Origin: Selaginella tamariscina
Lineage: Eukaryota; Streptophyta; Lycopodiopsida; Selaginellales; Selaginellaceae
Assembly (NCBI GenBank): GCA_003024785.1
Contig: PUQB01000950.1
Span: 1-64,000 of the forward strand
Length of the DNA stretch: 64,000 bases
Reading direction: 5' to 3'
Made by a program: the position numbers and the translations under genes. The notes below the pieces were generated by a model. The model ran no database searches, was not told where the DNA came from, and was given only the letters and a program-made list of their open reading frames with translations. Below, one piece after another: positions 21,362 to 57,840 of this stretch (the stretch's first letter is position 1; each line of letters begins with the position of its first letter).

Positions 21362-21439
21362 ACAAGCATTCCATATAGCACTTAGCGTGAGCATCAACAA
21401 AAGATGAAGCTTTTGAAGGTGAATAGTAGGGGTTTTCGG

Positions 21440-36060: not shown

Positions 36061-37065
36061 ACTGGTGCTAGATCATAGGCCCATGTGGCACTCCCACTGG
36101 TCTGTTGCCATGTGACTGGGTCTTATCCTATGGCCTTAATGCACCTCCCTTACACATGTTGTCCTGAGTACCTTGGTAGTCAATCTGGATATAATATAAT
36201 ATGCAAATATGTATGATTTACAAATTAAAACAAATTCTCATACACAATAAACTAAATATATAATGTAGTAGCTCTAAATTATTAAATGACAACAAAAACT
36301 GTAGATGACACATTCAAAGTGAATGAAAACTTCTTCAAATAAGCAAACATAAGAAGAACACATCAAACAAAAGTGTGAGTGGGTGCGTGCATGTGTGTTT
36401 GTGTGCATGTGTGTGCGGGTGTGATATGAACATGTGAGACTAATATGCATGTGAAAACCTGCATGACACATGTGCTTGTTGCTTATACAATGTAAAACAT
36501 GTATATATAGAAATGAATACAGACTTTTTATTAAATCATAATTAACATTTAAACTCTAATATATATACAATAGCTAACGGTACAAAAGGAGATCTTTTGT
36601 TTTTCATAAATATGCATAATATATATTTATTAGTTGCCATTCACCACATATGACAATGCTCACTTATGATAATATTACTTGTAATATGTATATTGTATAA
36701 TAATGTATTCACACTATGGCTGTTTTATGTCCACTTATACCCATAATCAATACGATATCACCACAATAGACTGTATATAGATGTATACACAATTGCATAT
36801 AGTCATTTAGGATTGTAAAAGTCAGCCCAAACTTGTGGAGTTGTAAGGCAAATTGAAGTGTGTGTGAGAGAGGGGAGGGTCATATGCCCACATGGTACAC
36901 ATTCATGTTCAAACACCAGCCATGGCTAGTTCACAATATTATACAATCTAACCACTGACAGTTTACGTGTTAAAACTCATATGCTTGTTTGTTCTACCAC
37001 GTGGTACATTTGCGTGGTCAATTGAGGGTATATTTAAAATAGATATGCGACCAAGAACTAGGATC
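36061..37065. other. AT-rich non-coding DNA, copy B
   Basis: Counterpart of 9,420-10,430, near-identical. No gene seen. Confidence 0.6.
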
Positions 37066-37190
37066 TGACCGTACATTAATTATGTGCGTGTTTGTTCAGC
37101 CACGTGGTCAGCCGTACATTAATTATGTGCATGTTTGTTCAGCCACGTGGTCAACCGTACATTAATTATGTGCAGCCACGTGGTCAGTCA
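37066..37190 (+). promoter_or_regulatory. tandem G-box repeats upstream of acidic protein gene, copy B
   Basis: CCACGTGG at 37,100, 37,143 and 37,177, plus one at 36,997. The first spacing is 43 bases; the second is 34 because part of the unit is deleted. They end ~55 bases before the ATG at 37,238. Likely a promoter array for plant bZIP/bHLH factors, by analogy only. Confidence 0.6.
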
Positions 37191-37237
37191 AGGGTATGTA
37201 AAAGCTGAAATGTGTAGGGTTTTTAAATTGAATCGCT

Positions 37238-38241
37238 ATGTACACACGCGAGCAAAAGAGGTTATGGTACTCTGCAGCGCCGCCATCACAACCAAACACC
37301 AAAGATGATTCAGGTAATATGAGAGATGAGAGAGAGAGAGATTCATCTGACTCATTTGGGCAGGCCGCCGATGAAGACGACCCATATGTGGATCCAATGT
37401 GGGGGCATCTGGAAAACCACGTTGCAGCACAACCAAGTTCTTTGCACTGGGGTGAGTTTGTGGAACCTCCTCCCAAGAAAAGAAGGAAATACATTAATTA
37501 TATGGCTGACTTAATACATGATGGGCGTGTTGGGGATTACAGAGATCCACCGCCATGGTCAATTGTGGGTGAAGAGACAGGCAAGGGAAATGAGGGTGGG
37601 AGCACAGAAAAGGTTGAAGAGGCAATGAAGGGAGTTCATGTGGAGATGAGAAGGGGAGGTAATGTGGATGCTTTGGATGAAAAGCGCAACAAGGTGGAGA
37701 GTGAGGAGGCAGAGGTAGAGGGGCATTCACATGACACTGTGAATGAGTTTGATCGGTTATTTGAGGAGGAGGAGGAGGCAGAGGGGCATTCAAAGGGCAA
37801 CAAGGAAAATATGGATGAATTCGATCTACTATTTGAGGAGGATGAGGCAGTAAAGGGCAACAAGGATGGGCTTGATCTTTTGTTGGATGGAGAGAGATCA
37901 AGGGTGAAGAACAGGCAACTAGAGGGGAAAAGGACAAGAATAAAGTAATTAAGGGTGGGAAGAACACTAAGAAGAAGAAGAAGAAACATCCGGAAATGGA
38001 AAAGTTAATACAAGAGGCTAAAGCGTTGTGGCCAGACCAGATACCATGTAAACACCATGGAGTTAAAAGTTGTACTCAGTTCTGCGACGTTAACAACGGC
38101 AGTTTGACTGGGCCTAGGTACAAATGCAACATAAATAAAAGCCGTTGGACACATTCGATGATGGACCATGATCCCGTTGTTGGAAATATCCTCAAGAATA
38201 TGACGAAAAGGTATCGCCAACTTGAAAAGGAGCTAGTGTGA
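37238..38241 (+). CDS. acidic nuclear-type protein of unknown function, copy B (one frameshift)
   Basis: Two open frames, 37,238-37,948 and 37,996-38,241, make one ancestral ~334-residue protein. Copy A keeps a G in GGAGAGGAGATCAAGG that is lost here near 37,895, and restoring frame joins them through a Lys-rich stretch. Features: MYTREQKRLWY start; a basic cluster PPPKKRRKY around residue 85 that looks like a nuclear localisation signal; acidic repeats (NEFDRLFEEEEE, NMDEFDLLFEEDE); and a C-terminal block with CKHHGVKSCTQFC..RYKC whose Cys/His pattern may bind a metal. The end is ..RYRQLEKELV, TGA 38,239-38,241. I do not recognise the family. Acidic repeats plus a nuclear signal could suit a chromatin or transposon accessory protein. 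Alternatively the second half is a separate exon, but no good splice pair is seen. Confidence 0.55.
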
Positions 38242-40375
38242 ATATTATGCTTTAGGCCATTTGGATATAAAATAATTTAATAAAGAATTATACTTGTGCT
38301 TTTGCATGCTCTGTACATATAAAGTATATTATGTGTTCATACATTTTCATTAAATGTATTGTTCTTAAATGAATAAGAAAAACCCATCTTTTTTTTTTAT
38401 TTCTAAGAGATTTCTAATTTTTGATTTTTAAGAGAAATTTTATATACACTATAACATAGCATTTAAGAAAAGTCTTGGAACGAAGAAAAATAAGAATACA
38501 TTATATATTAACTGTATATTATGAAATCTATATAGGATTTATAAAATCTCATTTTGATCTTTATATTAGCTGTTTTTGTGGATTTTATTGCATAAAGATA
38601 GCCTTCATATATTATTGTATATAAATCATGATTATATAACGAATACAATCGTATATAACTTATTGAGCTTTATTATTTTTAAAATATTATTTATTTTTTA
38701 ATGGGATGCTATTTACATTTAATATTGTCATGAATATCAAAAGTAATTTCAAATAAAATGGGATTACATATGAAGTGGATGCAAGAATTAGTTTTTCAAA
38801 TATTAAGTATTAAGTGCATATAGAAATTAAATTTTTCTGCCTCCCCATGTACAATTTAAGAATTAAACATTAGGTGATTAGATTTATAGAAATTCCAATT
38901 GAATATAAATGACATTTCTTATTTTACTAAATATTTAAGAAATAATAAAGCACAACACATGCTTATTATGATTTAAAAAAAGTTAACATAATGTTAATTC
39001 TAAGTGTTTATTCAGGAAGTGTTGGGAAAATTCCCACTTTGATTTAACAAATACTAACACATATGAAGAACTGGCTAGTAAGAACATTGTAATGCATGCA
39101 TACACGTGCATGTGTGCATTATATGGTATTTGTGAATATCTATACACACTTACATGAGACATTTATAGTGGAAATGGAGGTGTATTACTTGAATGTTTAT
39201 CTATGCTGCTGGAAGACAGTGCTTTTGGTGTTGTTAGTATTTCACATAATTGTTCCATGGTATGTACTTAGAAACTTAATAGTCAAGCACACATCGTTAT
39301 ATGCATGATATTCTTACTCATACACTTAGCTGATTTGTTTTTGTGTGTGTCTACGTATAAGATAGTTGTGGGTGTCATATAGTTAACAAGAAATCATAAT
39401 TCATGTGTACATACATTCGCACGTATACATAAATTATTAAAACAGACATATATATGCCAATATTACCAATAGATGGACATTAATTTAGATCATTTATAAA
39501 TACACACATAATGATTATTTATATACGCATACATACATGGCCAGTGTGTTTGTTCTTTATTCATTTCAGAAAACCAAGTAGCACATTCACCCATGCATAT
39601 CCTCTGAACATATGCTTTATGTATCTTAACATAATTATAAAAATGGTAAGATATATATTCATATGGATACACGCATATATACATGAGAGATTCAAATTGA
39701 CATTAATAAATCGGGCAAAGTATTTATATGAAATGATACAAAAGTTACCTTTGTAAGCAGTACAATAGAGGTAAATACACACTAGTGTAACACGAAATGT
39801 AAATTATGAAAAATTGTATATTGGTATAGTAATTATTATGTAATCACATGAATAATAAACTTTGTAACAATAGAACTAATCGTATATATGGAAAGCTTTA
39901 TTACACATACACGATTATTAAACTATTGTATAACACATGATTATAGACAATTATTAATATAATTGAATATATAAGGAGTAATAATATTATCTAGTACCAT
40001 TTTATTTATTTATGAAATAATCATGTATCTTATATAATAAGTTTATATGTTGTGTCTGTGTGTGTCTGTTGTGAACACCCCATCAACGACCATTCTAAAT
40101 TCTATCCAACGGCCTTCCTAAATTGTATCCAACGGGTATTATGAATTCCATTCGACAGTTATATTAAATTCCATCTAACAATTATCCTAAATTTTATCCG
40201 ATGGTTATCCTCTTAAACTAATAATTATCTTAAATTCACGAGGTTAAGGTGGGTTAAATATTCAAATTAGGGATAAAGTCACTTGGTTAAGGATAACAAT
40301 GGGATTGAGGGTCCAACTCAAGGACAAAGCATAAACTCACTATAGGATTAAGGATAACAACAACTGAGAATTTGA
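38242..40375. other. AT-rich non-coding DNA, copy B
   Basis: Counterpart of 11,677-13,808. No gene; short frames are shadows in AT-rich sequence. Confidence 0.65.
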
Positions 40376-40380
40376 GTTAA

Positions 40381-40768
40381 TGTCACGACTCGATACAGAA
40401 TACAGGATATGCTTACAAGATACGACCTACATGATACATGATATAAGATACGGGATACAGGATATGCCTACAGGATATACCTAGGATATGCCTATAAGAT
40501 ATGCCTACAAGATATGCTTACAGGATATACCTATAGGATAAGAGATAGTATTTTTATCTCATGCCTAAATTAGCTCTTGGAGTATCATTTTAGCTTATGC
40601 CTGGATTAGCTCTTGGAGTTGTGAATATAAAAGCTTTGACCTAATTGTTGTACAATTAGTTAATATCAACACTAGTCATTCTATGATCATTCTTGTCTTG
40701 TTCCTTGCTCTTGCCTTGCTCTTGAGTCAAGCCTCGTTCTTATCCTGCTCTTGGGTCGTGACTTGACA
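40381..40768 (+). repeat. 5' LTR of small gypsy element, copy B
   Basis: TGTCACGACTCGATAC..GTGACTTGACA; 388 bp; contains a TATAAAAGC box near 40,627. Confidence 0.85.
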
Positions 40769-40770
40769 GT

Positions 40771-40960
40771 TTGAACCCTTGTAGACTCTGGAGAAGTTCT
40801 TGCCAAAATCTGGACATAAATTATGGGCCTCGATTAGAAACAATGCTCTCAGGAAGACCATGATGTCGAAACACTTTGCGGATCACCAACTCAGCAGTTG
40901 CTTGCTCCTGTATCAGTGTCAAAGGTTCCTCCTTGACAGGATCCACCTCCTGTCAATTCG
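40771..40960 (-). pseudogene. inverted integrase fragment, copy B
   Basis: Reverse strand of the sequence just inside the 5' LTR encodes the same VFRHHGLPESIV..-type integrase core stretch as in copy A, showing that the inversion predates the segmental duplication. Confidence 0.65.
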
Positions 40961-41329
40961 TCAGCACATTCGCAGGCTCTTCTTCACTCATGTGCATTCA
41001 TGGACTTTTGTACAGGGTTCTTCCAATCTTGTACACTCGTCAACATTAGCACAAGTTTTCACCAATTTTGCCTCTTTTTATTACTCTTGCTTCTGTTCCA
41101 TCCCGCAGGATCCTTTCTTTTTTTCATTCACAACTCCCTCCTTCTCCTCTCCGCGTTCTAACCATTACTATGTATGAACTTGCCACTTATCCTGCTCCTT
41201 TTCATCTTTTTGCTTTTCAAGTAACTCCTACATCCTCTTTTACCTCTCATGTATCTGACTCTCCTGTTTTTCAATCTTCTTCTCCTTCTCTTACTTATTC
41301 CTTACCATCCAAGTATCACTCATTTCAGG

Positions 41330-43920
41330 ATGTTTTTTGATAAGCACAAGGCTGCAGTTCTTCCTATTTACAGGTCCTATGATTGTACCATTGATCTTGC
41401 AGAGGGGAAGACTCCACCGTTTGAACTAACTTATGTACTATCACCTACAAAATTGGAGGTTCTTCGCTAGTACATCGAGGACAACTTGGCATCCAGCTTC
41501 ATTCGTCACTCAAAGTCTTTTGCAAGAGCACCTATCTTTTTTGTTAAAAAGAAAGATAGGAGTTTGCATTTGGTTGTGGACTACAAGGGTTTAAATTAAG
41601 TCACCATCCGGAACCGGTACCCGTTATTATTAATCCCGGAACTTCTCAATCAACTACGAGGAGCAAAGGTATTTACGAAGATCGACTTACGAGAGGCCTA
41701 CAATCTTGTACGGATTCGTCTAGGTGATGTGTGGAAGACTGCCTTTCATACAAGGTATGGACACTTCGAGTACACGGTGTTGCCTTTTGAACTTATAAAT
41801 GCCTTAGCCATGTTTCAACACATGGTGAACAACATCTTTCGCGACTTCTTGAATCAATTTGTCGTGATTTACCTCGATGACATCCTCATTTTCTCCAAGG
41901 ACCAGGCGGCACATGACAAGCATGTACGACTAGTTCTACAGAAGCTTCGCGATCATGGCATGTATGCAAAGTTGGAGAAGTGTTTTTTTTGACAGGGATA
42001 CTGTGGAGTGCTTGGGCTACATCGTCTCTCCTGCTGGTGTCTCAATGAACATGCACAAAGTGAAGACTGTCGTGGAGTGGGAGAGGCCTAAGTCTATATG
42101 AAACGTACAATGTTTCCTTGGCTTCGCAAATTTCTATAGGCGATTCATACATGACTTCTCCAAGCATGTACTTCCACTCACGGAACTCACCAAGTGCTTT
42201 GGGGATTTCTCTTGGTTTGACAAGGTGGAACATGCATTCACATCACTCAAGGACGCTTTCACGACAGCTCCGATTTTAGTACATCCTGATCCTTCTTGTC
42301 CCTTCTTCATTGAGGCAAATGCTTCGGACTTTACAATAGGTTCTATCCTATCACAAGTTGGAGAAGATAAGTTACTTCATCCTATAGCCTTTCACTCTCG
42401 TAAGTTCCTTTCAACAGAGATCAATTAAAAAATTCATGACAAGGAACTCAAAGCCATTGTGATTCGTTCAAAGAGTGGTGGCACTTTCTGAAAAGTGATG
42501 CACATCCTATACAAGTTCTTACGAATCACAAGAACCTGGAGTTTTTTGGGCTTGAGTTCTCACTCGATAATAGGCTAGGTGGGCAAAAGTCCTATCATGT
42601 TTTGATTTTGTCATTGTCTACAGGCCTGGTTTTCAAAATGGCAAAGTGGATGCATTGTCTAGGCGCTCTTACCTTGCACTGACCCAAGGCGATCCTGCAT
42701 ACGACTGTCAAAAGCAAGTGTTGCTGGGTCCTGATTGATTTCGACTTGCAACACTATAGGTTCATCAGGCTTCAGCAAATTCAACACTTCTACAGGGCAT
42801 TCGTTTGCAATTGGCTATAAACGACTTAGCAAAGAATGTATTCTCACACATTAGTCCTGACATCGCAAGCTCCTCTTCTTCCAGTTCCCGTACAGACTAT
42901 AAGTTGTTTGCCATACAGGATGAACTCATGTACCAGGAGGGTCTCATGTACATTCCTGTTGGTGTTTACAGGACTCGTGTGGTACAAAATTGTCATGATA
43001 CCCCGGCTACAGGACATTTTGGTGTGGCCAAGACAATTGAGTTGGTGACTCGCAACTATTGATGGCTTGGGTTGTGAGGTTTTATGGAAAAGTTTGTACG
43101 GAGTTGTGACACTTACAACAGGTTGAAGATGCCTCGTCACGCGCCTTCTGATCTTCTTTGTCCTCTTCACGTTCCCTCTTCTCCTTGAAGATCCATTTTT
43201 ATGGATTTCCTCATAGATCTTCCTTCTTCTCGTGATTTGATGCAGTTCTTGTGGTGGTTGACCGTTTCACCAAACAAGCTCATTTCCTGCCTTGTAACAA
43301 GACGGCTACATGCTAGACAACTACTAAGTTGGTGATCTGCGAAGTGTTCCAACATTATGGTCTTCTTGAGAGTATTGTTTTTGATCGAGGCCCATAATTC
43401 ATGTCCAGATTTTGGCGAGAACTTCTCCAAAGTGTACAAGTTAAAGCAGATCTTTCTTTAGGATATCATTTGTAAACTGATGAGCAATCAGAATGCACGA
43501 TTTAGACCTTGGAGCAGTATCTTCGCTGCTTCATCAGTTATCAATAGAACAACTGGTTGGACCTTCTTCCTATGGCGGAGTTTGCTTACAACAACTCCGT
43601 TCACGCATCTATAGGCCAGACACCTTTCTTTGCTTTTACAAGTTACCATTCACGTTTTGACTTTGCTCCTCATGCTTCTCCTTTTTCCACTCCTACAGTA
43701 CAGAATCGTCTCCAGCATTTTTGTCAAGTACAGGATGATCTCCGAATTCATCTTCAGCAAGCACAAGAACGGTACAAGCGTCATGCTGATGCTTATCGTC
43801 AGCCAACACCTGCATACAAGATTGGTAATCTTGTGTCTGCTTTGTCGGCATATCCCACCAACATGCCTTTTTCTAAGTTGAATTTTTAATGATTGGGCCC
43901 TTACAGGATTATGGTTGAGG
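41330..43920 (+). pseudogene. pol remnant (RT, RNase H, integrase) of small gypsy element, copy B
   Basis: RT entry DCTIDLAEGKTPPFELTYVL (41,383-41,442); RT core ORF 41,729-41,992 with [20 protein letters not shown] and [14 protein letters not shown]; RNase H ORF 42,225-42,428 with FIEANASDFTIGSILSQ, where a catalytic Asp of ADASDF has become Asn (copy A keeps Asp); integrase zinc-binding region 42,960-43,060 (NCHDTPATGHFGVAKT); integrase C-terminal ORF 43,557-43,889 ([19 protein letters not shown]). Frame breaks between each. Non-functional. Confidence 0.8.
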
Positions 43921-44261
43921 TCAATTCTGTAGCTTTCTGACTAGAGCTACCATCTACTGTGAAACTTCATCCTGTGTTTCACACTTCTTTGTTGGAACCG
44001 TATCATCCTTCTTCTCTTCCTGGTCGTGCTTCTTCTCTTCCCCCTTCTGTGGTCATTAACAATGAACTTGAAGTTGTAGCCATCCTTTATTCTCATCTTC
44101 ATCACAGCCAAATTTAATAATTGGTGGATTGGAAAGGTTATTTGCCTACCGATCGCACTTAGGATTCTACATCCAATTTACTCCATGTTTTTTCCAAGGT
44201 TGCTGCCTTCCATCAACGTTATCCTGTTAAACCAGGTCCCATGTCCTTAGGGAAGAGGTGC

Positions 44262-44633
44262 TGTCATGACCCGATATAGAATACATGATATGCTTACAGG
44301 ATATGACCTATAGGATACAAGATACAAAATACGAGATACAGAATATGCCTACAGTATCTACCTATAAGATATGCTTATAGGATATGCTTACAGGATATAC
44401 CTATAGGATAAGGGACATTATTTTTAGCTCATGCCTAGATTAGCTCTTAGAGTATCATTTTTAGTTTATGCCTAGATTATCTCTTGAGTATAAAAGCTCC
44501 AACCTAATAGTTGTACAATCAATACTATCAACACCAGTCATTCTACGATCATTTTTTTTCTGTTTCTTGCTCTTGTCTTGCTCTTGAGTCAAGCCTCCTT
44601 GTTCTTATCCTGCTCTTGGGTCGTGACTTGACA
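44262..44633 (+). repeat. 3' LTR of small gypsy element, copy B
   Basis: TGTCATGACCCGATAT..GTGACTTGACA followed by GTTAA. Confidence 0.85.
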
Positions 44634-44638
44634 GTTAA

Positions 44639-45230
44639 GGCCTTAGGACTTAAATAATTAAGCTCGGGCATAAGCTTAAGAATAAACTCACTATAACAAT
44701 TGGGTTAAAAGACCCACTATGTTAAGAATAATAATAAGTTCATATTGCGTGTGTTTGTGTGTCACCGATGCCCCCCTCTCTAGCCATTAATATCTTACTC
44801 AATATGCTGGATTATCCTAAATTCGCCATCTAACCATTGATATCCTATCCCGATAACAATTGGGTTAAGGGTCCATATTAGATAAAAATTTACTATGTTA
44901 ATTAATTAAATAGTTAAGTCCAAGCACGAGCTTAAGGATAAATTCATCAGGTTAAGAATAGCAATTGGGTTAAGGGTCCTAATTAAGGATAAACTCACTA
45001 TAAGGTCAAGGGTCTAGTTAAGAGATAAACTCACTAGGTTAAAAATAATTGCTTGGTTAAGGGTCCAACTTAGTATGGTAAGAATAACAACTATGTTAAA
45101 GGTTATTAAATAGTTAAGTCAGGACATAAATAAACCAACTCAAGAATAAACTCGCAATAACAAATGGGTAAATAGTAAATAGTTAAGCCCACCAAGGGTA
45201 AAAAATTTGAAAGATAAAGTATAACAAGAC
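44639..45230. repeat. TTAAGG/GGGTTAAGGGTCC repeat tract, copy B
   Basis: Counterpart of 17,995-18,700, with two deletions relative to it (one near 44,850, one near 45,193 removing ~90 bases). Confidence 0.7.
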
Positions 45231-45244
45231 TTTTTAATCCACAC

Positions 45245-45858
45245 TTTGTTTTCATATGTATATTGGGAAGGGTTCACATGTCCATGAACGAGTACATCTC
45301 GTGACCCGCTACGTCTTCTAGGATGGCCTCTGCATAGTGGCTTTTAGTCATCGGTAGTTTATACAGATTCTTAGCTGCCCGTCCTTCTTTGGTACAATGA
45401 CAATTGGTGAAAGTCATTCTGGGTTCTCGATGGCATAGATGAAGTCCGCTTTGAGCCACTTGTCAATCTCATGTTTGGCCTTCCGGGCGTAGTTAGGGTT
45501 GTGCGGTACTGTTGTTGGTGGCTAGGTCAAATGTCAAGTTTTAGCTTAATTCTATGCTAGCATAATCTGGCAGTACTCCCCTTAGGTCGTGATAGGTCCA
45601 GGCGAACACTTCCCTGTGCCTACAGAGGCAGTCGGCAATCTGCTGCCTTAGTTCTAAACTTGTGTGAGCATTGACATTCACTAGCCGGGGTTCCTCGTTG
45701 GTGCCGCAGGCGGGGCGACACTCCGCATTTCCTTCCACATGACGGCCACCTCGAGATCTGTGCTTCTGGGGTTTACTCCGGCCTTCAGCCAAGCGCAACA
45801 GTCTTTGCAATTGATCATAAACCCCAAAATGGGTGCAACAACTGCTAGCCTTGATCAA
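45245..45858 (-). pseudogene. gypsy pol fragment, copy B
   Basis: Minus-strand frame 45,858-45,541 with LVNVNAHTSLELRQQIADCL and CRHREVFAWTYHDLRGVLPD, the pre-RT linker of a plant gypsy polyprotein. The minus strand above it (46,159-45,881) reads as a Pro/Ala repeat (APLAQPPP, AMDVVVAPP), possibly a coding relic or a shadow. Confidence 0.6.
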
Positions 45859-45899
45859 AGCAACTAGTCTTCAACAGTAGTCAAGGAACCCACAACAAC

Positions 45900-47232
45900 T
45901 TCCAGAACTTAATTTGCGGGAGGAGCTTGTGCAAGCGAACCACAAGAGGAGCCATAGTAGCATCCAAAGCTTGAACTTTGGGGGGAGGCTGTGCAAGCGG
46001 AGCCGTAGGAGGAGCCACAACAACGTCCATAGCTTGATTTGTAGGGGGAGGCTGTGCAAGTGGAGCTACAGGAGAAGCCACAACAACGAGGGGAGCATGT
46101 GCAACCGAAGCCGCAAGAGGAGCCTCTATAGCTTGATCCATGGAAGTAGGAGGAGCCACATCAGTGAGTGCAACCAGGCCGGAGAGTCACAACAGCAAGT
46201 GCAAGGGGGCCGCATGAGAAGGAACAACAGCTTGTGCAAGCGGGCCTCCAGTAGAGCCACAGCAACCAGTGCAATTGTAGGAAGAGCAGCCACTATTTGA
46301 CCCAGAGAAGCAACCGGAGGAGGGAGCGTGTGAGGAAGCCCGTGTTGGATCAGCCAAAAGAGGAAGAAGAAGTACAAAGTGAAGAGGAGTCGACAAAGCA
46401 TAGCCAAAGCAAATCCACAAGCGACTCTCAGATCTCTTCGCCCTCTACTTTGAAGTCAACTTCATTCAGAATCAGAATCTGTATCTTTGGAGGTTGAGGT
46501 TGTGATAAAGCAAACTCATAAAGTTGCCACTTTGCTGCCCAGATTTTTGAAGTTGTCCAGCCCTGTCTCCAAAAAGGCTAAGTGTGACGAATCATCTCCA
46601 AAGGCAAGGTCCAGACAATCTCCTTGTGCAAAGTAGACATCGCAACGTTCTCCAAAGGCAGTGTTAGGACAATCTACGAAGGCAATGTCAGGGTCATCTC
46701 CCAAGCAACGGCCATCTACGTGCCAACCATACCAGTCCAAGTGGTGGGCTGCACAGTCCACAACGTGATCATAGACAGGGTCAGGCGTAAACATCATGTT
46801 GGCAGAGCTCCATTGAGAGCTAAGGATGCCACCCCCAGAGCCCTCACCTTCCTCGTATGTATGGCGAACCAAGCCAAGGTGGCACCCAAGGGCATCATGA
46901 GAAAGGTAGAGATCGGGATTCAAAGTGTCAAGTTCTTGATAAACGTGGTCATCCTCAACATGCATGCAAAAGGGGGGTTCGACTTACTCCTAGGCCGGCT
47001 ATGGCTCAAGGGCACAAGGGTACAGCATGACTGGGAGAATCAGCGAGTTCAATTCCTCGCCAAGAGAGGACTAATATCCGTTACTATGAAACATGTCCGA
47101 GTGCCACCATCAGAATCTCGACCCCAGGAGTACCATCTCCTAGATTGGAGCAAGGGGCTAGACGATGAGGAAGAAGCATCTATCTTTGCATGTTTACCAG
47201 ACTTATTTGTTGTATGGGAGGTAGACCCCTGA
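45900..47232 (+). pseudogene. gypsy gag-protease fragment, copy B
   Basis: Plus ORFs 46,297-46,497 (PKEEEEVQSEEESTKHSQSK) and 46,624-47,232. The latter has YVPTIPVQVVGCTVHNVIID, then after a base change GSGVNIMLAEL, then PKGIMRKVEIGIQSVKFLIN, KGGFDLLLGRLWL and a 3' block DWSKGLDDEEEASIFACLPD. This is the retropepsin region of a gypsy polyprotein whose active-site DGGSG is broken by an indel. It stops at 47,232 with no RT following, so the element is truncated. Confidence 0.65.
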
Positions 47233-47619
47233 CAGGAAGTATGGGAGTCCGCCGCCACATACCTGATGACACCTGCATAGAACTCTTGCCTTAGGCACCA
47301 TGAAAACCCTAAACCTAAGCCTCGTACACAAATTGTTGCTAAGTATGAAACTATGCTAGAAACTGCATGAACAAACTATAGCATATAAGAATATACCACT
47401 ATTTAAGAATATTTCAAAATTACAAAAATGCATTTTTACAAGTGCCACTAGGTTTGGTGTTCGAATCTTGCGACTAACTTCCTACATAGACACCATGTGA
47501 ATATTCGCCTCGAGCCGCTCATTTTGAACTTGCTCACATTGAATGTGGAGGCTAGGGTTCTAGTTTGCCTCATGTAAGCCACAGAGGATGCCTCAAACAC
47601 GCAATTAGCGCAAGAGAGG
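47233..47619. other. spacer without recognised gene, copy B
   Basis: Counterpart of 20,661-20,989; no supported coding sequence. Confidence 0.4.
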
Positions 47620-47945
47620 TGCTGGGTCTGGAACAGCTTCAAAGTGGCCACCAAAAGGAGCTCCAAGAAAACCCAAGGCAGCAGCCAAAAGTGTGAAACA
47701 CAAGTCTAGTAAGTGGGTTCCTATTTTTATTTCATGCCATTGCATTTCTCTGTTTGTTTCCAGTCGATCGATCTGCATCTCCCCCACCTAAACATAGGCA
47801 GGTGAGTAAAGGATCCCCTTCTCCCCCACCACCACTGCAGCAGGAGGAAGAAGAGCCACAACAGGAGGAAGAGCAGCCGCAAGAGTTACTCCATTTGAGC
47901 AAACTAGCTAAACAACAGCCCCGAAATGCACGAGGAATGGCTTAA
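47620..47945 (+). pseudogene. 5' exons of a DNA-transposon-type gene, copy B
   Basis: A basic exon (GSGTASKWPPKGAPRKPKAA..) ends at a GTAAGTGG donor near 47,708. An intron ends TTTCCAG near 47,762 and the next exon encodes DRSASPPPKHRQVSKGSPSP, a Glu/Gln repeat and LLHLSKLAKQQPRNARGMA, stop 47,943-47,945. The reading frame is open across the junction. In copy A possible downstream gene sequence follows, but here it is cut by the MULE element some 90 bases later. Confidence 0.5.
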
Positions 47946-48038
47946 AGTCAGGTGGGACAAGCATTCCATATAGCACTTAGCGTGAGCATCAACAAAAGAT
48001 GAAGCTTTTGAAGGTGAATAGTGAAGGGGTTTTTGGAG

Positions 48039-48155
48039 AGTGTCGCCATTTGGAGGCTTGGGGCCCAGGAGCCTGGGCTCAAATATTCAAGAATATTCTA
48101 GAATATTTTGGAATATTCTTTCTGGTCGGCAGTATTGGCCTCAGTCGGCAAAAAA
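48039..48155. repeat. left terminal/subterminal repeat of the MULE element
   Basis: It contains GGAGGCTTGGGGCCCAGG, then TTCAAGAATATTCTAGAA and GGAATATTC (48,085-48,119), then two copies of the GTCGGCA word (48,126 and 48,144, the second within TCAGTCGGCA). The alternating GAA/TTC at 5-base steps also matches a heat-shock-element pattern. Confidence 0.6.
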
Positions 48156-48232
48156 GAATTCTATTAAAACTGTTGTATTTCTTTTTTATTTTTTTTTATA
48201 TTAGCTTAATTTATTACTCAATATACATTAGC

Positions 48233-51200
48233 TTAAAGTTTCTTCTTCATCTTAAGTAAAGCTGCAGTTCTCGAACCACCAGTTACGCTTGGACGTGGAG
48301 GTGTTTGAGTAGGTAACTCTTCTGGTCTAATGTTCTCTGCAAGCTTGTTTGTTGCCAACCTAGAGAGTTTGAAACTCTTCTCGGTTCCTATAATATTCCT
48401 TCCAAGCTCGACGGCAGCTAACAATGATGACCCGGTTCTGGAACCAATATCCCAGACTAGGTCGCCAGGTCTACTGAGACGCTCGATCAAAAGCTGCATG
48501 AGTCGAACACTCTTCGGTTGAATCATAATCCTGCACAATCTTCCATTAGGATAAACATAGCAAAGCACTTCCTTACCAAGCCTCCTGATAACGGTCGGCA
48601 GTGTCGACGAGGATCGTGTTCGTCAACGCCAGAGGGTTTGGCCTCTTCGACTTCTTCTCAGAGCTTTACAGCACCAAGAGAACTAACAAGTTATCCTGCC
48701 ACATAGACCAAGTTAAACTTGAACTTGAATAGCTAGCTTACCCTTAATTGTCACGGTATCCCAGCCTCGTGCACGGTAGACGCTGTAAGTCCCTGCAACC
48801 TCCAAGTTGATTACTGCAGCCGCCTGAATCACCGCCGAAACAGAAGGAGAACTCGCGAAGACGACCATGAAACCACTCGCTGCCAAGTGCATTCCACTGA
48901 ACTGCAAGGCCTCCTCAAACTTCACCGGATCTAGCTGCACAATGTCCTTGTTGATGCTAGCACCTCCATATACAAGCTCATTGGGCAAGTCGAGGATGAT
49001 GAGGTTGAAGCCGTATTCACCTACCACTTCCTGGAACAATGTTTGTGACTCAACCTATGTTAGTCTGTCAACCTGTTCTGGAAGCTTGGTGTACACCTTT
49101 GTCTGGGAAGCACCTGGCTCGAAGAAAGACCTGCTCATCTCCTCATGTCGCACACAGCTAGGTCGTAGGATCCACGGGATGCAGCCAGGGTCGGGATGAA
49201 GGTCATCAGGTCGTCCTTGATGTCCAAACTAGCTACAAGTGGCTGTACCTCATTGATTGTAAAGTCGAATGCCGGCGGAGGTGCTGTAGAAGAGCTTGGT
49301 CCCGCACCCGATCCCTTTACAGGTGTAGTTGTCTTCCGCACCGTCTTCTTCATCTTGCTCTTCTTGATAGCCTCTACTTCTTCTGGCTCCCAAACAATCG
49401 CTGGTAGATCATTGGCGTGCATGTCGAATAGTGTGCTCTCCCAAGCTGGTGGCTGTTGCGACGGACAGTCAAGCCAGAATGAACATGCTCCCGTTCGAAC
49501 GGTGTTAGAGCTCCTCTGCTCTTCGACCACATGTGAGGCTCGCTTGTATGATCTGTCCACAGCTTCATCGTATGGGACGGTGTCATTTGCTTCGCCAGTA
49601 TGAACCTGCAACACAAAGTCAGACAGTAGCAATGCTGGATTGAAAGCTTACCTCCATATCATCCGACGCGCAGATTCCTCACGCTCCAGAAACTCATTCG
49701 GCTCCATCGAATAAGTGAACCGTATGCAGTCATGGAAGGGCTGAAAGACCAGGCACTTGCTCCGAATTCTCATCTCGTCAAACCAGCTCATGAAGTCGAC
49801 ATCCGTTCCAACTTCTTCACCATCCTCTCGCAACCCCTTAAGGATCTGAATGGCTTCCTCGCGCACAGCCTTCCAATATAAGTCCAAGGTGAACCACTTG
49901 ATCCACTCTTTGTCCTGCATGCCCGGTAGCCCAAGTGTCTGTTGTTCTGCCTTGGATTCGAGACGGGTGAGCTTGTTCAGGTATCGGAGTCGCAGCATGT
50001 TTGGAATCTTCGCCCTTGACATCGCATACAGCTTCTCAATGCCCATCCAGCGACACTGCTTATGAGAGATGTTTGTCACCTTCTGGAACCACTCCTCCCC
50101 CAAGTCTGGGTCTATGATGGAGAGGAACTTGTGCATACGCTTGTCATGCTTCTTGTACACTAGCTGCTTAGGTTCACCTCAACCTGTGATTGCCCTTAGC
50201 ACTGGTGACTGCTCTGTCGAGATCATCGTCGATCTCGTTCTGCACATAGAACAAGTTAAAAATTTCTTTCCTATAAATTAAATCGGAGGTTACCTTGAAA
50301 AGTATCTTTGCGCAGATCAGGTTCGGAAGAGGATGCCAAGCCGTCTTTCCTGATGAACTCTCCTTCCACTTCCGCACCTCAAGACGATCAACCTCCGTGA
50401 GTGACTCGAGGATTTTCTGAGTTCCTTCTGTACTAGTGCAGACCGCCTTTACAGCGAGGAGAATATGTGGTAGCGTTGTTTCCACAGATGTTGCTGAAGA
50501 TCTGTTCAACGAAACTGTAAGTCTAAACTCTTAACAAAAAGAAAAGAAAATACTCACATGTTAATCGATTGGAACATCGAAACCAGTTGAAGAATGTCGA
50601 GGTTCTCCGTGGAGATGAAACTCGATCGAACGCGAATAGCCCATCGCTGGTTGTCCTCTGCATCCTCTCGGTACAGCTTCTGCAAAGCCTGTAGCCTATG
50701 GTTCCCGTCCCAGCAGCTAAACTTCCTGTTTGAGAGCCTTGAAGCCCACTGTTTGTACTCCGGCTGAGTAAGAGCTTGCTCGAAAGACCGGTGCTGCTCG
50801 TACTGAATCGTGTCCTTCGACAGCTCCGATAGCTCCTCAGCAGTGAGTCGATCTCCGATGGACAGAATGAACAAGGCCGTGTTGCGTAGATAACCAGCCT
50901 TCTTCAACGATGACACCAGCCTGTCCAAGTCCCCTGGGTTCACTCGTCGAACCACCTCGTTGGAATGTATTCTGCAGATGGGCACATCAGGAGGATCACC
51001 AAGTCCCTTGATAGTAATTTTGTCGAGCAGGTTTGCTGAGCTCTCCAAATGCAGGCTCGCCGGTATGCTGTATAACTCCTTCGGCTCCTTATCGCTCTTC
51101 GCCTTCTTGCCTTTTGAATCAGCTTTCCCGCGGCCTCTCTTTTTGCTGACTGCCTCCTCCAAGTCGTCCTCGCTAGCTTCAGCTGCCTCTGTCATCTGCA

Positions 51201-51453
51201 CTTGCTCGTTCAGGACTGCAACCTCAGCGGATGAAGGAGGCAACTGCGACGAGCTCTCCGGGAAATCTGTGATTGTTGGTGGAGGCTGTTCTTGCTCAAC
51301 TGCTACTACTCCAGACTGAGTCACTGGAGGATCCTCCTTTGCTACATTAGATGGTTCTCCTCTCTTGCCTCGCTTCTGCTTCGATATCCTCTTCTCTTCC
51401 CGTGGCTCTTCATCAGGCGCAGTCTCTAGTAGACGTTTTGAAGCTCTCACCAT
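48233..51453 (-). pseudogene. ParB-like / DNA-methyltransferase-like protein gene, locus 2 (lightly frame-broken)
   Basis: Start ATG at 51,451-51,453 (MVRASKRLLE..), stop TAA at 48,233-48,235. Clear exons: 50,558-51,453 (donor GTGAGT), 50,294-50,501 (donor GTAACC), 49,652-50,239 (donor GTAAGC), 48,742-49,605, and a last exon to 48,233. Exon 1 has a Lys/Glu-rich disordered part (~160 residues with GKKAKSDKEPK) then a ParB N-terminal-like domain: VPICRIHSNEVVRRVNPGDL, LDRLVSSLKKAGYL, and SCWDGNHRLQALQKL near residues 243-257. The fourth exon has GFNLIILDLPNELVYGG, the DPPY position, and GFMVVFASS; the last has PKSVRLMQLLIERLSRPGDL then VWDIGSRTGSSLLAAVELGR, the motif I region. This order (IV before I) is that of beta-class N4/N6 DNA methylases. 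DPPY is DLPN and FxGxG is IGSRT, so catalysis is doubtful. One-base frame changes lie near 50,175, 49,600, 49,130 and 48,600, plus TAG at 49,055-49,057 in place of a probable Trp. Confidence 0.7.
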
Positions 51454-51460
51454 TTTGAAC

Positions 51461-51530
51461 TCTGGAAAGTAAACACACAAGTCAATTGATGAGGAGTCAA
51501 AATAAAAAAAACAAACAAAGATGACTAACC
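51461..51530 (-). other. 5' leader intron of locus 2
   Basis: On the minus strand, CCACAAG followed by GTTAGT at 51,529 and an acceptor TTTACTTTCCAG ending at 51,462 define a 68-base intron immediately before the start codon context AGTTCAAAATGG. Confidence 0.6.
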
Positions 51531-52494
51531 TTGTGGCTGCCGACTCAAGCTAGATGCTGCCGACCCTCTCAGTCGGCAGAGAGATGTAGAAGAAAAACCT
51601 GCCGACTGAGATAGTTTGTGCCGACTCTGTCAGACGGCACGAAGAGATAATGGTGCCGACTGAGATAGGATGGTGCCGTCCCTCTCAGACGGCACAAATG
51701 GGAAGACCCATTAACTGTTTTAAAAGAAATACTTGAGACGCAAAGAAAAAAAAAACTAATTCAAAATACCTTGTGGCTGCCGACTGAAGAAGGATGGTGC
51801 CGTCACTCTCAGTCGGCACAAATGGGAAGACACTATAACTCTGAAAAAAAACATTGTTATACGGATACTTGAGCCGCAAAGCAAAATATAAACAAATTCA
51901 AAATACCTTGTGGCTGCCGACTGAAGAAGGATGGTGCCGTCACTCTCAGTCGGCACAAATGAGAAGACACATTAACTCTGAAAAAAAACAATGTGATACG
52001 AATACATGATCCAGAAAGCAAAAAATAAATATATCGAACATACCTTGTGGCTGCCGACTGAACTAGGATGGTGCCGTCACTCTCAGTCGGCACAAATGGG
52101 AAGACCCATTAACTCTGAAAAAAAAACCTTGTGATACGAATACTTGAGCCAGAAAGCAAAAAAAAACAAATCGAAAATACCTTGTTTTTGCCGACTGAAC
52201 CAGGATGGTGCCGTCACTCTCAGTCGGCACAAATGGAAAGACCCATTAACTCTGAAAAAAAAACATTGTGACACGTATACTTGAGCCGCAAGGAAAAAAA
52301 TAAATAAATCGACGATACCTTGTGTTTGCCGACTGAACCAGGATGGTGCCGTTGCTCTCAGTCGGCACAAATAAGAAGACCCTATATCTCTGGAAAAAGA
52401 AATACTTTGAGCAGCAAATCATAAAATACAGAAATTACACATACCTTGTGGCCGCCGGCTGAGCAGGATGGTGCCGAGAATCTAAATCGGCACA
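51531..52494 (-). repeat. 137-bp tandem array of palindrome-bearing exon-like units
   Basis: Units begin (plus strand CTTGTGGCTGCCGACTGA-type sequence) at 51,771, 51,908, 52,045, 52,182, 52,320 and 52,446: periods 137, 137, 137, 138, 126. A compound unit lies at 51,531-51,714. Each unit contains the inverted arms TGCCGACTGA and TCAGTCGGCA. On the minus strand each also contains a T-rich tract plus CAG and, exactly 71 bases on, CACAAG followed by GTAT. This defines candidate exons 52,319-52,389, 52,181-52,251, 52,044-52,114, 51,907-51,977 and 51,770-51,840, all 71 nt, separated by 66-67-nt introns. Four units hold an 8-codon upstream ORF of the MGLPICAD type. The array lies directly upstream of locus 2 and between it and the divergent transposase gene. 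Confidence 0.85.
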
Positions 52495-52991
52495 GAAATC
52501 TCCATTGTTATACTTGGGCGCTGCACGAATCGAGTCGAAATGGATGGCGCCGCAGTGGAAACCGTAACTCTGAGATCTGAGATTGAAGAAACCCTCTGGA
52601 TCTGCCGCAGTGGAAACAGATCTGAGATTGAAAGAACCCTAGCCGCAATGGAAACAGTAAACCCTATCTACCAAAAAACCCTAGCCGCAATGAAAACAGT
52701 GAACCCTACGGAATAAATGTGACATTAATATTTAGGGTTTATTTTAAAATATGTGAATAATTGGTAAATGTGAAGATATTTCAAATCATAAAAGGTAGAA
52801 ATTAAATTAAATCGGTGATACTAGAGAGGACATCATTAAGAACACTGTGAACTGGGCAGCATAGAATTAATTATATACAAACGTGTATTCACGTTTATTG
52901 TTAACGATTGTAATTTTTTTTTGGTAAGAGAAAGTGTGTTTAATCTTTTGCTTTGCTTTCCTAAACCACCGAGCTTTCTCCTTGCGTTGTC
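52495..52991 (+). promoter_or_regulatory. divergent promoter region between array and transposase
   Basis: Contains repeated GCCGCAGTGGAAAC and CTGAGATTGAA words (52,550-52,640), then three AACCCTAGCCGCAATG-like words with AAACCCTA/AACCCTA telo-box motifs. AT-rich sequence follows up to the ATG at 52,992. Transcription in both directions from this region is an inference from gene orientation. Confidence 0.45.
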
Positions 52992-55900
52992 ATGGCCAGA
53001 GTTACCTATGAAGGCATTGACAAAGATTTCCCAGTCGATGAAGATGGAAATGCTTTTGTGTTTGAACATGATCTTCACATTGCTTTCAACATTCCTTGTT
53101 GGTTCAGTATACATGTGGTTCAATTGATGTCAGTTTCTGCGAGTTCTGGAGAAGATGTGGAGTTGTTACCAGAAGGCAATGCATCAAACCAGTTTGTCTT
53201 TTACACATTGTGCCCGGCAAAGGGCCCGTTGTTCAGGTTGCGGACAGAGGAGCGTGAGGAATCCATGCTGGTGTGTCTTCTAAGAGCAGACAAATGTAGG
53301 ATAGGGAAGGATCTCATTGGTTCGTCTGAAGTTAAACGAGTCTCTGAACTACCGCAGATATACAATGGAAATGTCATTTTCGAACTTCCCCCTAAGACAG
53401 AAAGCACAGAGAAGTACTCGGGGATGAATCGCAAGGATGGCTGCTACCATTGGACACACCCGAGCACAACACACTGGCATGTTCCGGCGCGAGTCAGTCG
53501 AAGTTCATGTGTCGGACATCTCCAATGCATCAATCCTACCTGCCCCTACTTGGCTTTTGAGAAGAAAGCAAATGAATGTCACTTCAAGGGTGCTGTGGAG
53601 AAGGCAAAGACAACTGAGACAGGCAAAGTAATAGGCATAAAATGTAAGCATTGTGGAGAGGAGCCATTGCTGGTGCACACTTGTCCGGCTTATGTGTACT
53701 ACATTCTGCCAGACGACATTTCTTTTACAAGGTTGTTCATTCACAGAGGTGTTCATCAGCATCCAGTCAGCCCCTCAGTGTCAGCTTCAAACGTTCAGCG
53801 AGCCAGATCTAGTGTCAGCAACGTGGTAAAGAGCAGTCCGCGAACCAATCAACGAGTGATTGAGTTTCAAGCCGCGCGTGAGCTCATCTTTGAAGAACTT
53901 TTCAAGGAAGAAGGAGAAGTCTCGTACACTGGTTTACTCTCAAAACTTGAACCTCTAACAAACCATCGAAGGTATTTTTTTTAGATCTCTACACACTGAC
54001 GTGACCTTTTCTTTAGGACTCGGGACTGGATTACACAATCAAGACAGAAGGAGACACACTTTAGAGAGGGTTACGAGGGTCTTCTGAGCTGAAGACAAAG
54101 CTGCCAATACCTTTTCATTCACGTCATACATGTTCCAGGGATGGAACTGCATGGTGCTGAGGAGCAGCCTCTGATCTTCAAAATGACAGTTGAGGGACCG
54201 GGTTCAGGAGTTGAGTACATCAGAAGGTGTCAAAGTGGAGGAGACCTTCATGATCAATGGGTTGTTCTGGACCACACGCACCGCATACCAGACTGGGCGA
54301 CAATTGGAATACACCTTTATGACCCATTGTAAGTTGTAAAACTCTTCATAACACTTTCTAATCTTCGTTATCTAACGCTCTCTTGCAGTGTCAGATCCAT
54401 GGTGACTATAGCTTACGCAGATATGTGCCGCGAAGATAATGTTGCAGTGCTGAAGTTCTTGAACACAATGCTAGAGGTTTGTAAGAAGCAGGGTTTGGAG
54501 AATGTCAACTTTGCTGGTTTCATGTCGGATGAGGCTGGAGCGATATGGATAGCCTTGCGCCAAGTATTCAACAACGGAGCAAAGATGAAAGGGAGGGAAA
54601 GAAGCTGTCTGTTTCACTTTATGCAATCCGTGCGTCAGGTGACAAAGAAATGGATCGCAGAAGAACATCGCGAAGAACACATGAAGCTTGCTCGTGCCTG
54701 GCCTGCAGCACTGAATGAACAATCTAAGAAAGAACAACTGGCAATTCTCGAGTCTTTTGGGAAGGACGAGCGTCAAACATTCGAGCTTTGAAGACATGGC
54801 TGTCTTGGTGGATCAGGCATGAGGACCACATCTCCATGGCGGAACTGGGAGACATGACAGAAGAAGGACTCGCGAGCGTTCCAACTACAAACAATGCTGA
54901 AGTGATTCACGCGAGAGCAAGAAGAGCAAGATTGGCCAAAAGAGTACCACTGCTGGAGGCGACAATGTTAGACCTCACCGATGCAGTTATGCAGAGTGCG
55001 AAGGTGAAAGCGGCAATAGAAGGGAGGTATACAGGGTCAGGGCCTTCGAAGGAAACTCTGTTGAAACGAGTGCAACGCAAACTCTCTGAGGGGAAAAGTG
55101 TATCTCCATCAACAATTATTAATCTGGTGGAAGGCGAGGAACACTTGACCAGCCCGGAGTTCACGAGTACCACTAACGTTCGAGTGCAAACTGTTAGGAG
55201 AACAGTCACAGGAACAGAACAGTCTGATGCTCGACGTTCACACAGACATGATGTAGAGTACACAGAGCGGGTGGTCCAAAACAACAGGAGAAAGAGGTTA
55301 AGGTTCGAAGAGGTTTCGGAGAGAGAGATTGCTCAAACAGAGTGGGCCATCAGACGAATCGGAGCATCCAGTAAGGTTAAGTGTTTGGGGATGAATCAGG
55401 AAGGAACTGCTCTGTGTGGAAAACCAATCGGTTATCCAAGCAGAGTGCCAGCACCAGGATTCTATGGAAAACGAATGTACATTGATGCCTTGGGGAATGA
55501 GGAGTATGTACAACAGATGATGTGGTTCTGCCCAAAAGATTCAGGGTGTTTCACGCGGCCAAACGGCAAAATTCTTCGGTCACGAATTCCAACACCACCA
55601 ACGGTTTGGCCTGTGCTCAAGGAAACGAAGCTGACAAGTGAGGAGGTCAGAGAACTACAGGATGCAGGCTTTGTTCTGGAAGGTTTACAGGGGATGGCAG
55701 GAAGAGTAGATGAGGGTCAGAAGGACAAAACACCATCGCCACCACGTGGAGCTGGATCTACAACAATTCCACCTTTCGAAGGACGTATGGTTCGGACTCC
55801 AACAAAAATGTCTAAGGAACAAGAGAAGAATTTCCGCAAGGCCAAGACGTTTTTAGGTTGTGTGCGAAATGTTGAAGTGACAGCTAGAGGACGGAAGGAG

Positions 55901-56156
55901 GGCTTTCGTTGTGTCGGCAGGAAATGACTCTGCAAAGGTGACTATTAATACTTATCCTTCATGCAGTTGTTCTACATTTCAGAAGAGCAAAAGTTGGAGC
56001 CCATGTGTACACATGTACTTCGTCTATAGCCGTGTGCTTGGCTTGAACCCGGAAGTCACATATTTTCTACAAAGGCGATCGCTCAGTGACATGGAGGTCC
56101 ACCGTTTGCTGGTGAATTGCAACAGAGTTCATGACCCACCGGTGCTACAAGGATAA
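52992..56156 (+). pseudogene. MULE-type DDE transposase with GCM/WRKY-like and SWIM zinc fingers (lightly frame-broken)
   Basis: Exon 1 52,992-53,971 (donor GTATTT), exon 2 54,017-54,328 (TTTAG..GTAAGT), exon 3 from 54,389 (TTGCAG). An N-terminal ~170 residues of unknown fold precede a Cys/His cluster (HWTHPSTTHWHVPARVSRSS, CVGHLQCINPTCPYL, CKHCGEEPLLVHTC, HRGVHQHPV) like GCM/WRKY-type DNA-binding zinc fingers. The catalytic triad fits MULEs: first Asp in VVLDHTHRI (54,270), second in GFMSDEAGA (54,528), Glu in TTNNAEVIHAR (54,899), with SCLFHFMQSV between. The C-terminus has a SWIM finger, CSC..SPCVHMYF (55,964-56,010). Breaks: in-frame TGA at 54,090, a likely lost T near 54,786, and a frame change near 55,915. 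It would cut and paste the element by binding its ends. Flaws are few, so a related intact copy may exist elsewhere. Confidence 0.75.
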
Positions 56157-56340
56157 ATGGTTTAGGGTTTAGGATAATGTTTTATTAAGCCAGTCGGCAT
56201 ATATTAAGCCAGTCGGCATATTAAAAAAACTTATATATTCTAGAATATTCTTGAGAAATTCTAGAATATGCTAGAATAACCCTAGAATATCCGCGAATAT
56301 CTAGAATAATATGAAGCCTCCTAAGCCGGAGCGTCGAGAC
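56157..56340. repeat. right terminal/subterminal repeat of the MULE element
   Basis: A 19-base direct repeat TATTAAGCCAGTCGGCATA is followed by AT-rich sequence and six GAA/TTC blocks (TTCTAGAATATTCTTGAG.. to about 56,312). The reverse strand then shows GGCTTAGGAGGCTTCATATT, matching GGAGGCTT of the left end. The outermost boundary is not resolved. Confidence 0.55.
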
Positions 56341-57840
56341 CCCTATGAGTGTGCCGCTTGCAATTCCCTTGAAACGAAGCATCAATGCTTTCATTTTTCA
56401 AAAATTGTGAGCTGGTCACTTGCAGTTCTTTACAAACAAAACTGCAAGTCGCAGTTCTTGCAATTTCTTAAAAATAGAATTATGAGCAGACAAGTCGCAA
56501 TTTTTTAAAGAAAGAACAGTGAGCGGATGGCTCGTAGTTTCACAGTGATGAATTGCATGCAGGACGGACAAAATGCAAATCGTGCGGCTCCCGTACAACA
56601 TCAGTGCAACTAGCATGAAAGCCGCATGGCTCAAAATGCGGCTTCCCTATGAGACCAAACAAACTTGCACAGCTTCCATATGGCCGCATACGAAAGCTGT
56701 GTGGTGAGTTCAAATCTGCAAGCAAATGCAGATCACTCACGAAAACAAAAGAAATTGCGGGCAAATGCAAAAATCGCACGCAAATGCAAAATCAAAAGAG
56801 AAATCAAAAAAATTGAGAAGAAGATGCACAAATTTATTAAAAATGACTGTAATATTTTATTGATATTTCAGCAAAAGAATCTGCAAAAAAAATTTAACCA
56901 ATGAACCCTAACCTAACCCTACAAAATTAGGGCTTTATCAAACCCTTTTGTATGACCCTACCAAAGTTAGGGCTTTTGGATTTTATAGTTTTTGAGGTGT
57001 TTAATTAAAGTTACTTTGAAACTAATTACAAGCAAATTGTTACAATTTAATTATATTATTTTTATAGTTGATTACATACGCAAGGACAAAATATATTGAT
57101 ATATATATATAAAGATTTAATATGCATTGTCAAACTTAAATTGAATTTTAAGGTTTAAGGTTATTTAGGTGAAATTTACATTGACATTTTAATACTTCCA
57201 CAAATAAATTGATATAGAATGTTGTCTGTGTCATCAACATTTAACGGCCATTCTAATTCACCTTATTGACTCTTAAATAGTAAACTTGTGTTATCAATAC
57301 TCATTAACCATTTTGATAATAACCATCCTAAATGTTAAACTCACATGGTCCCAAATGATTATCTTAAACTTTCTTTATAATATATTAGACGGTTATTTTA
57401 AACTCCTTATCTAATCCATTTGATAATTATTTTAAATTACATTTATAATGTACTAAACTTTTTATATAATTCATTCAATTATTATCCTTACCGTTAAGAT
57501 ACAAAATTTGATACATTAATAACTTGAGAGAGAGATAAATAGAGTAGAAAAATAGTTAAATTATCACATACATATAATAATTTGAGAAAGTTTGAAGAAA
57601 AATTATCACATACATATAATAACTTGACACAATAAAGAGATTTCATGTGTTATCACATATACACAATGAAAGTACACTAATTTAAATTGTAAAATTCTTT
57701 AAATATATTAAAGTATTATAAAGAGAGGGAAATTGTTAAGTTATAAGAGAGAGTTATTACATATACATAATAACTTAACAGAGTTAAAAGAAATTACACA
57801 TAACTTTGAAAAAGAATTAAGTTATCACATAAAGTAATTT
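56341..57840. other. AT-rich non-coding DNA
   Basis: The 56,400-56,900 part has repeated TGCAAGTCGCAG and GCAAATGCA words in both orientations. The rest is AT-rich with no gene. A short CCTAACCCTA motif is at about 56,905-56,925. Confidence 0.5.

Follow-up and report, generated by a model that had tools for sequence, protein, structure and literature searches.

Does a plant transposon carry, as a regular part of itself, a gene resembling the ParB-methylase fusions of prokaryotes, and if so, what might the encoded protein do there? The question is raised by a stretch of 64,000 nucleotides from Selaginella tamariscina (contig PUQB01000950.1 of assembly GCA_003024785.1, positions 1 to 64,000; hereafter the window), in which an earlier note, made from the letters alone, had placed at 48039..56340 a Mutator-like element (MULE) whose transposase gene runs divergently from a ParB-like/methylase-like gene. 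The first part of the question can be answered with near certainty: the element is a Mutator-like transposon, and the methylase-like second gene is regularly paired with the transposase within it, since the ends of the element enclose both genes in sister copies and the second gene is also found where a search had left the transposase unpaired.

Sister copies with shared layout and ends, which the earlier note had advised looking for, occur on many contigs of the host assembly (300.7 Mb, 1,391 contigs). The profile PF03195 of the LOB domain, which is specific to streptophytes, has 20 matches in this assembly and none in 14 control genomes, those shown by name being prokaryotes, and a land plant or a close relative is accordingly the probable host. 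The exon encoding the ParB-like region has at least 133 matches, of which at least 37 are identical in protein sequence, the window copy being counted in both cases; the former number is a lower bound (132 of 1,814 candidates were scored). Twenty copies were retrieved for comparison, all drawn from the protein-identical matches and hence not a random sample. Thirteen of these match window positions 48038-56335 in one piece, at most 13 bases off either end and with 98.0-99.4% identity, four (L024, L029, L031 and L033) reach both ends in pieces, and three (L026, L036 and L038) are incomplete. When only substitutions are counted, identity to the window copy is 98.87% or higher in 17 of the 20 and the element has therefore spread recently, while the three incomplete or misaligned copies align poorly (75-89%). 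The element is young and multicopy, and the frame breaks of the window copy are absent from most of the retrieved copies.

Alignment of the sister copies gives the tips of the element as GAGTGTCGCC on the left and GAGACCC on the right, so that the single element of the earlier note stands while its limits shift to 48038 and about 56342. The AGAATATTCT-rich ends that were said to enclose both genes are imperfect inverted repeats. In four copies an alignment of about 85 nt, starting some 15 nt inward of the tips, scores 47-54, compared with best scores of 29-40 from 200 shuffles per copy, and the element thus has the long terminal inverted repeats of a MULE. MULEs generate target duplications of 8-11 bp, typically 9 bp, and sister copies conform to this: a script found exact duplications of 9-10 bp at 9 of the 12 copies in which both tips were recognised, the right boundary being free by 0-2 nt. 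Among the other three, L028 has a flanking repeat with one mismatch in nine, and L039 and L040 have none. Flanking repeats read by eye measure 9 bp at L029 and L031 and 8 bp at L030. No target duplication was found in the flanks of the window copy (48038-56342), the right one of which is common to L030 (a single 9.1 kb match, 99.1% identical). At 48037/48038 its intact left tip abuts foreign DNA. Positions 6482-21441 and 34279-48038 are the two copies of a large duplication, which aligns in four main pieces at 91.6-95.4% identity, stops at the left tip of the transposon and so forms its left flank; the odd junction there is perhaps due to a transposon-adjacent deletion or to a rearranged duplicate. 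Runs of GAAnnTTC lie inside the terminal repeats at 48087-48120 and 56235-56305. These runs resemble heat-shock elements and could be transposase sites or pieces of a heat-responsive promoter.

The pairing of the two genes was followed through the genome with a piece of the transposase, which has at least 109 matches (108 of 2,170 candidates were scored). A divergent ParB exon lies beside 57 of the 109 transposase matches listed, at a distance of 2,589-3,703 nt (median 3,340), and 76 of the 133 listed ParB matches are without a transposase partner among the matches listed. Ten of the 52 unpaired transposase places were inspected, and the second gene was at the expected position in all ten, with L054 seen in partial view. 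Likewise, several retrieved ParB copies that were unpaired in the lists bear the transposase by DNA match, L026 and L036 only its first part. The second gene was missing from none of the 67 transposase places (57 paired and 10 inspected) covered among the 109 listed. The earlier note had named transposase copies lacking the second gene, with ends that exclude it, as grounds for giving up its claim. The ten sampled places all carry the gene, and the placement of the ParB gene outside the element was rejected, both genes lying divergently between the shared, sharp ends of sister copies.

Five exons, separated by introns of 35, 46, 46 and 46 nt, were fitted to the second gene from the sister copies, and the intron patterns of this model were found in 11 of the 20 copies; earlier models, in which an intron measured 20 or 54 nt, were given up once sister copies had been read. 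The frame is open over 1,017-1,020 codons in three of the 11 copies that fit the model (L026, L027 and L042). That the C-terminal half is homologous to DNA methylases is very probable from its sequence. The methylase profile PF01555 proposed as a check scores 37.8 bits against a cut-off of 26.7 on letters joined from sister copies, the match being confined to the C half of the profile, and 30.1 bits on the window copy's own piece. A sequence search of the PDB with the methylase part returned MboIIA (E=3.7e-4), and beta-class N4/N6 methylases of phages (L001-L005, L007 and L008) are homologs that keep the motif order at 18-26% identity to the read-through domain of the window. As its S-adenosylmethionine (SAM) motif the domain has DIGSGTGSS in 16 of the 20 copies; three copies have variants, and in one the motif was not found. 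N4/N6 methyltransferases usually have (D/N/S)PP(Y/F/W) as their catalytic motif IV. All 20 copies depart from this with NLIILDLPNE (DLPN), and catalysis by the methylase half is therefore doubtful. The seven aligned phage methylases, which are stand-alone enzymes rather than fusions, have D[PIV]P[YF] at this position. The composite protein had no match at E<=1e-3 in a set of 5.8 billion proteins and none in two scans of viral contigs.

The N-terminal half is probably ParB-like, as suggested by a two-block motif test in which the best match falls at LDRLVSSLKKAG.../RKFSCWDGNHRLQAL and is reached by 3 of 500 shuffles. None of 500 shuffles reaches the score of the second box taken alone, and four control segments were reached by 42, 205, 279 and 392 of 500. 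The blocks of this test were derived from four ParB proteins and cut by hand with the candidate already known. Pfam and NCBIfam gave no support for the region, and its single weak PHROG match, to a family with no function assigned, lies outside the ParB-like box. A tblastn search of phages with the ParB region returned one irrelevant match. Single-sequence AlphaFold models were poor, with a predicted local distance difference test (pLDDT) value of 32 for the ParB region of the element and 45 for that of a second ParB-like gene in the window.

The same word marks both ends and the centre of the element, as the earlier note had observed: AGTCGGCA half-sites lie inside both ends and are dense between the genes. 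The exact word occurs at 20 places in the window, 18 of them within 48039-56340, whereas in 300 sequences simulated from the element with a first-order Markov model the mean was 0.23 and the maximum 2. In 18 of 20 copies it is found no more than 1200 nt from the start of the retrieved stretch, and the 20 copies each have 3-7 units of the central array and 11-19 half-sites. The spaced palindrome TGCCGACTGA-N21-TCAGTCGGCA has 1,147 genomic places, and its reversed control none.

The transposase contains VVLDHTH, FMSDEAG, SCLFHF and TTNNAEV as DDE-type landmarks in the order expected for MULEs, whose transposases have D, D, CxxH and TN-E. Zinc fingers of the WRKY/GCM and SWIM types are frequent in MULE transposases, though not universal. 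The earlier note had read both a GCM-like and a SWIM finger here. By eye the N-terminal region is rich in Cys and His; PF10551 did not score on the window copy or a sister copy, the GCM profile had no match to the transposase, and the SWIM profile PF04434, at 17.2 bits in the window copy and 17.6 in a sister copy, falls just under the Pfam cut-off of 19.6.

Table 1. Positions of the features of the element, and of a second ParB-like gene, within the window
Feature	Position	Strand	Basis or remark
Whole element, window copy: Mutator-like transposon, ~8.3 kb	48038..56342	.	sister-copy alignments, tips, flanking repeats
Left terminal inverted repeat, rich in AGAATATTCT	48038..48121	+	
Subterminal AGTCGGCA site, left end	48143..48150	+	
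ParB-like / N4-N6 methyltransferase-like gene, five-exon model	48236..51453	-	frame-broken in window copy
Exon 5, C half of methylase, SAM motif (DIGSRTGSS in window copy)	48236..48530	-	
Exon 4	48577..48695	-	sister-copy model
Exon 3, methylase N half including motif IV NLIILDLPNE	48742..49605	-	
Exon 2, linker, after 35-nt intron	49652..50522	-	sister copies
Exon 1 with ParB-like region (~51081-50560; box FSCWDGNHRLQAL)	50558..51453	-	at least 133 genomic matches, block test
Central array: ~137-nt repeats with TGCCGACTGA-N21-TCAGTCGGCA or variant, between the divergent genes	51538..52494	.	
Transposase gene; exons 52992-53971, 54017-54328, 54389-56156	52992..56156	+	long open exons, frame-broken in window copy
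Putative SWIM zinc finger, C-terminal end of transposase	55911..56153	+	PF04434
Two subterminal AGTCGGCA sites, right end	56192..56218	+	
Right terminal inverted repeat, AGAATATTCT-rich; window copy missing a few bases near tip	56230..56342	-	
Another ParB-like gene, box YYIISGQHTITAAQRL	1948-4750	+	two-block test 6/500 shuffles, box alone 11/500

The second ParB-like gene belongs to a different family, whose gene and array occupy 329-4750 (+) and whose right end is perhaps near 6272-6315. Its C-terminal part was likened by eye to a degenerate methylase and had no profile match. Upstream of it (329-1300) are 20 copies of the palindrome GGCGGGATTAATCCCGCC at up to five mismatches, six of them exact, which differs in sequence from that of the Mutator-like element. 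An exon of this gene has at least 150 genomic matches (150 of 4,927 candidates were scored), and the genome contains 27,128 exact copies of GGCGGGATTAATCCCGCC and none of its reversed control, suggesting that such arrays may have multiplied enormously in the host. The first 100 places listed, all on C1, often fall by eye into clusters spaced ~44-45 nt, some of the clusters being paired ~3-4 kb apart; among the matches listed, the exon match at C1:131749 lies ~1.5 kb past the cluster C1:130054-130227, mirroring the layout of the window. The family extends leftward beyond the window, and no transposase belonging to it was seen. A NIF/FCP1-like phosphatase frame lies just downstream of the gene at 5190-5819 (+; PF03031, 1.3e-10). 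PF01555 scored above its cut-off at all 150 genomic places scored (of 739 candidates), mostly in an open frame of ~106 amino acids. At least four of these places, identified by eye, are at ParB exons of the Mutator-like element (C14:499976, C111:33311, C113:193422 and C964:102387), and the others suggest another, larger methylase-bearing family. Elsewhere in the 64-kb window are retrotransposon-like polyprotein frames at 29073-30609 (-), integrase-like by eye; no tRNA or Rfam family was found there at gathering score.

ParB-methylase accessory genes in transposons are already on record from algae, and the element has forerunners there. According to the portion of PMC12477816 that was available, Sola1-1_Ec32 of Ectocarpus has an accessory gene for a ParB and N4/N6-methyltransferase protein opposite its transposase, and green and red algal precedents are cited there (Iyer 2011, Petroll 2025). 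The likeness, which is one of description rather than of sequence, extends to both domains (the ParB half being recognised here by the motif test), to protein length (1104 amino acids versus ~1,017 here), to the strand opposite the transposase and to a DNA transposon as the vehicle. Position, orientation and methylase half thus agree with the algal class, and the ParB half has moderate support. The two elements differ in host (a brown alga there, a plant here), in superfamily (Sola1 there, Mutator-like here) and in length (21.5 kb there, 8.3 kb here), and that portion of the paper mentions for Sola1-1_Ec32 neither an array of sites nor the loss of motif IV. No Mutator-like or land-plant case of such a gene was found in the literature searched, whose scope left out most subscription papers, and among the papers seen PMC12477816 alone describes such a protein. 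Relative to the algal precedents, it is apparently new that the vehicle is Mutator-like, that the host is a plant, that arrays of sites accompany the gene and that motif IV is altered. A second comparison is offered by VANC, which in the accessible part of PMC5735166 is described as binding tandem-repeated motifs of its own VANDAL MULEs in Arabidopsis and causing loss of DNA methylation, with proteins and motifs co-evolving in the non-coding parts of MULEs. Both systems have an accessory protein borne by a MULE and a short, element-specific motif tandemly repeated in non-coding DNA, for VANC also upstream of the VANA gene. Function was demonstrated for VANC and is predicted here, where the motif is an interrupted palindrome, and the likeness is one of layout. 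Prokaryotic fusions that join a ParB-like domain with an adenine-methylase-like domain (PMC5512222, as seen in part) share the domain pair, and the present gene differs from them in its long linker, its introns, its eukaryotic transposon and its DLPN motif.

The best explanation overall, held with about even confidence, is a plant MULE with a ParB-like and beta-class N4/N6-methyltransferase-like accessory protein that uses the arrayed palindrome to recognise the element encoding it. The palindrome is dense between the two promoters and present as single sites inside both ends. Such recognition might keep copies active or mark the ends for transposition, as VANC does for VANDAL MULEs. The protein would act by binding DNA, and perhaps SAM, rather than by methylating, the former being likelier because motif IV reads DLPN in every copy. 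That the ParB-like protein binds the array has an even chance of being correct; an anti-silencing role like that of VANC, proposed by analogy, is a more tentative suggestion.

Several observations weigh against self-recognition by a ParB-like protein. The second gene had no match to PF02195 at E<=10, a PDB sequence search with the ParB region returned five chance-level matches, and hhalign of both ParB-like regions against 16 plasmid ParB/RepB proteins gave ~1%, with 30 shuffles of each reaching 1.3 and 0.8. Because PF02195 and hhalign were negative, the designation ParB-like depends on the motif test, and of the fusion proposed in the earlier note it is the methylase that a profile upholds. 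The array could instead be bound by the N-terminal region of the transposase, and its link to the element is partial: by eye, 8 of 14 listed palindrome clusters have a ParB or transposase match from the lists at most ~5 kb away, and a ninth (C50) is close to a PF01555 match among those listed. The second gene is closed by early stops in 8 of the 11 copies that fit its model, and none of 11 copies has an open transposase under its gene model, seven stopping at codon 564 and four earlier. The transposase model is therefore provisional at ~54755-54790, where the frame changes and these seven copies stop, either from an intron missed by the model or from a break common to the copies. Substitutions point clearly neither to constraint nor away from it. 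Young copies have 14 synonymous versus 16 non-synonymous changes in exon 3 and the exon-5 region of the ParB-like gene (P 0.18 and 0.17) and a rough ratio of non-synonymous to synonymous rates (dN/dS) of 0.9-1.45 in the transposase; in ParB exon 1, 24 of 57 changes are synonymous versus 23% expected, uncorrected for transition bias, in 10 copies picked by transposase.

The closed frames, and the lack of a clear sign of selection in young copies, would fit a functionless captured passenger gene. MULEs do capture genes, as in Pack-MULEs, but the presence of the second gene at all 67 transposase places paired or inspected, its open frame in three copies, and the similar pairing reported for a brown-algal transposon of another superfamily (PMC12477816, as seen in part) make this very improbable. 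A chance neighbourhood or an assembly artefact, to which only the left junction of the window copy without its duplication might point, has next to no probability and was rejected in view of the end-to-end copies, the target duplications and the gene pairing, in identical layout on many contigs with differing flanks.

The remaining explanations grant the gene a function. The palindromes could be sites of the transposase, used for subterminal binding and promoter autoregulation, and the ParB-like protein a helper of transposition such as a nickase, an end-bridging factor or a target-choice factor. Transposase binding sites often lie just inside element ends, as the palindromic sites do here. 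In addition, ParB domains elsewhere act as DNases or NTPases (PMC5512222, as seen in part). That in the second family a ParB-like gene of another sort is accompanied by an array of quite another sequence speaks against transposase sites, although the argument is weak because no transposase of that family was seen, and this explanation is considered unlikely. Judged equally unlikely is an active methyltransferase that, guided by its ParB domain, marks the element encoding it with N6-methyladenine or N4-methylcytosine, as proposed for the Ectocarpus Sola1 protein in the part of PMC12477816 that was seen. It accords with a PF01555 score above the cut-off and with a SAM motif kept in 16 of 20 copies, but no copy has an aromatic residue in motif IV, where the phage homologs do, and the putative motif of the second family also looks degenerate by eye.

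With the Selaginella element, the range of ParB-methylase accessory genes widens from algal transposons (Sola1) to include a plant MULE. Two features come on top of what the seen part of PMC12477816 describes: palindromic arrays next to the gene, present in many copies, and an alteration of the catalytic motif. It is conceivable, though improbable as a general rule, that eukaryotic transposons run ParB/parS-like systems of self-recognition in which each family has its own ParB-like protein and palindromic array. The arrays beside the gene make binding of such proteins to their own transposons directly testable. If the protein does bind its own array, transposons would have converged upon self-recognition through arrayed sites at least two times, with VANC and with the ParB-like proteins.

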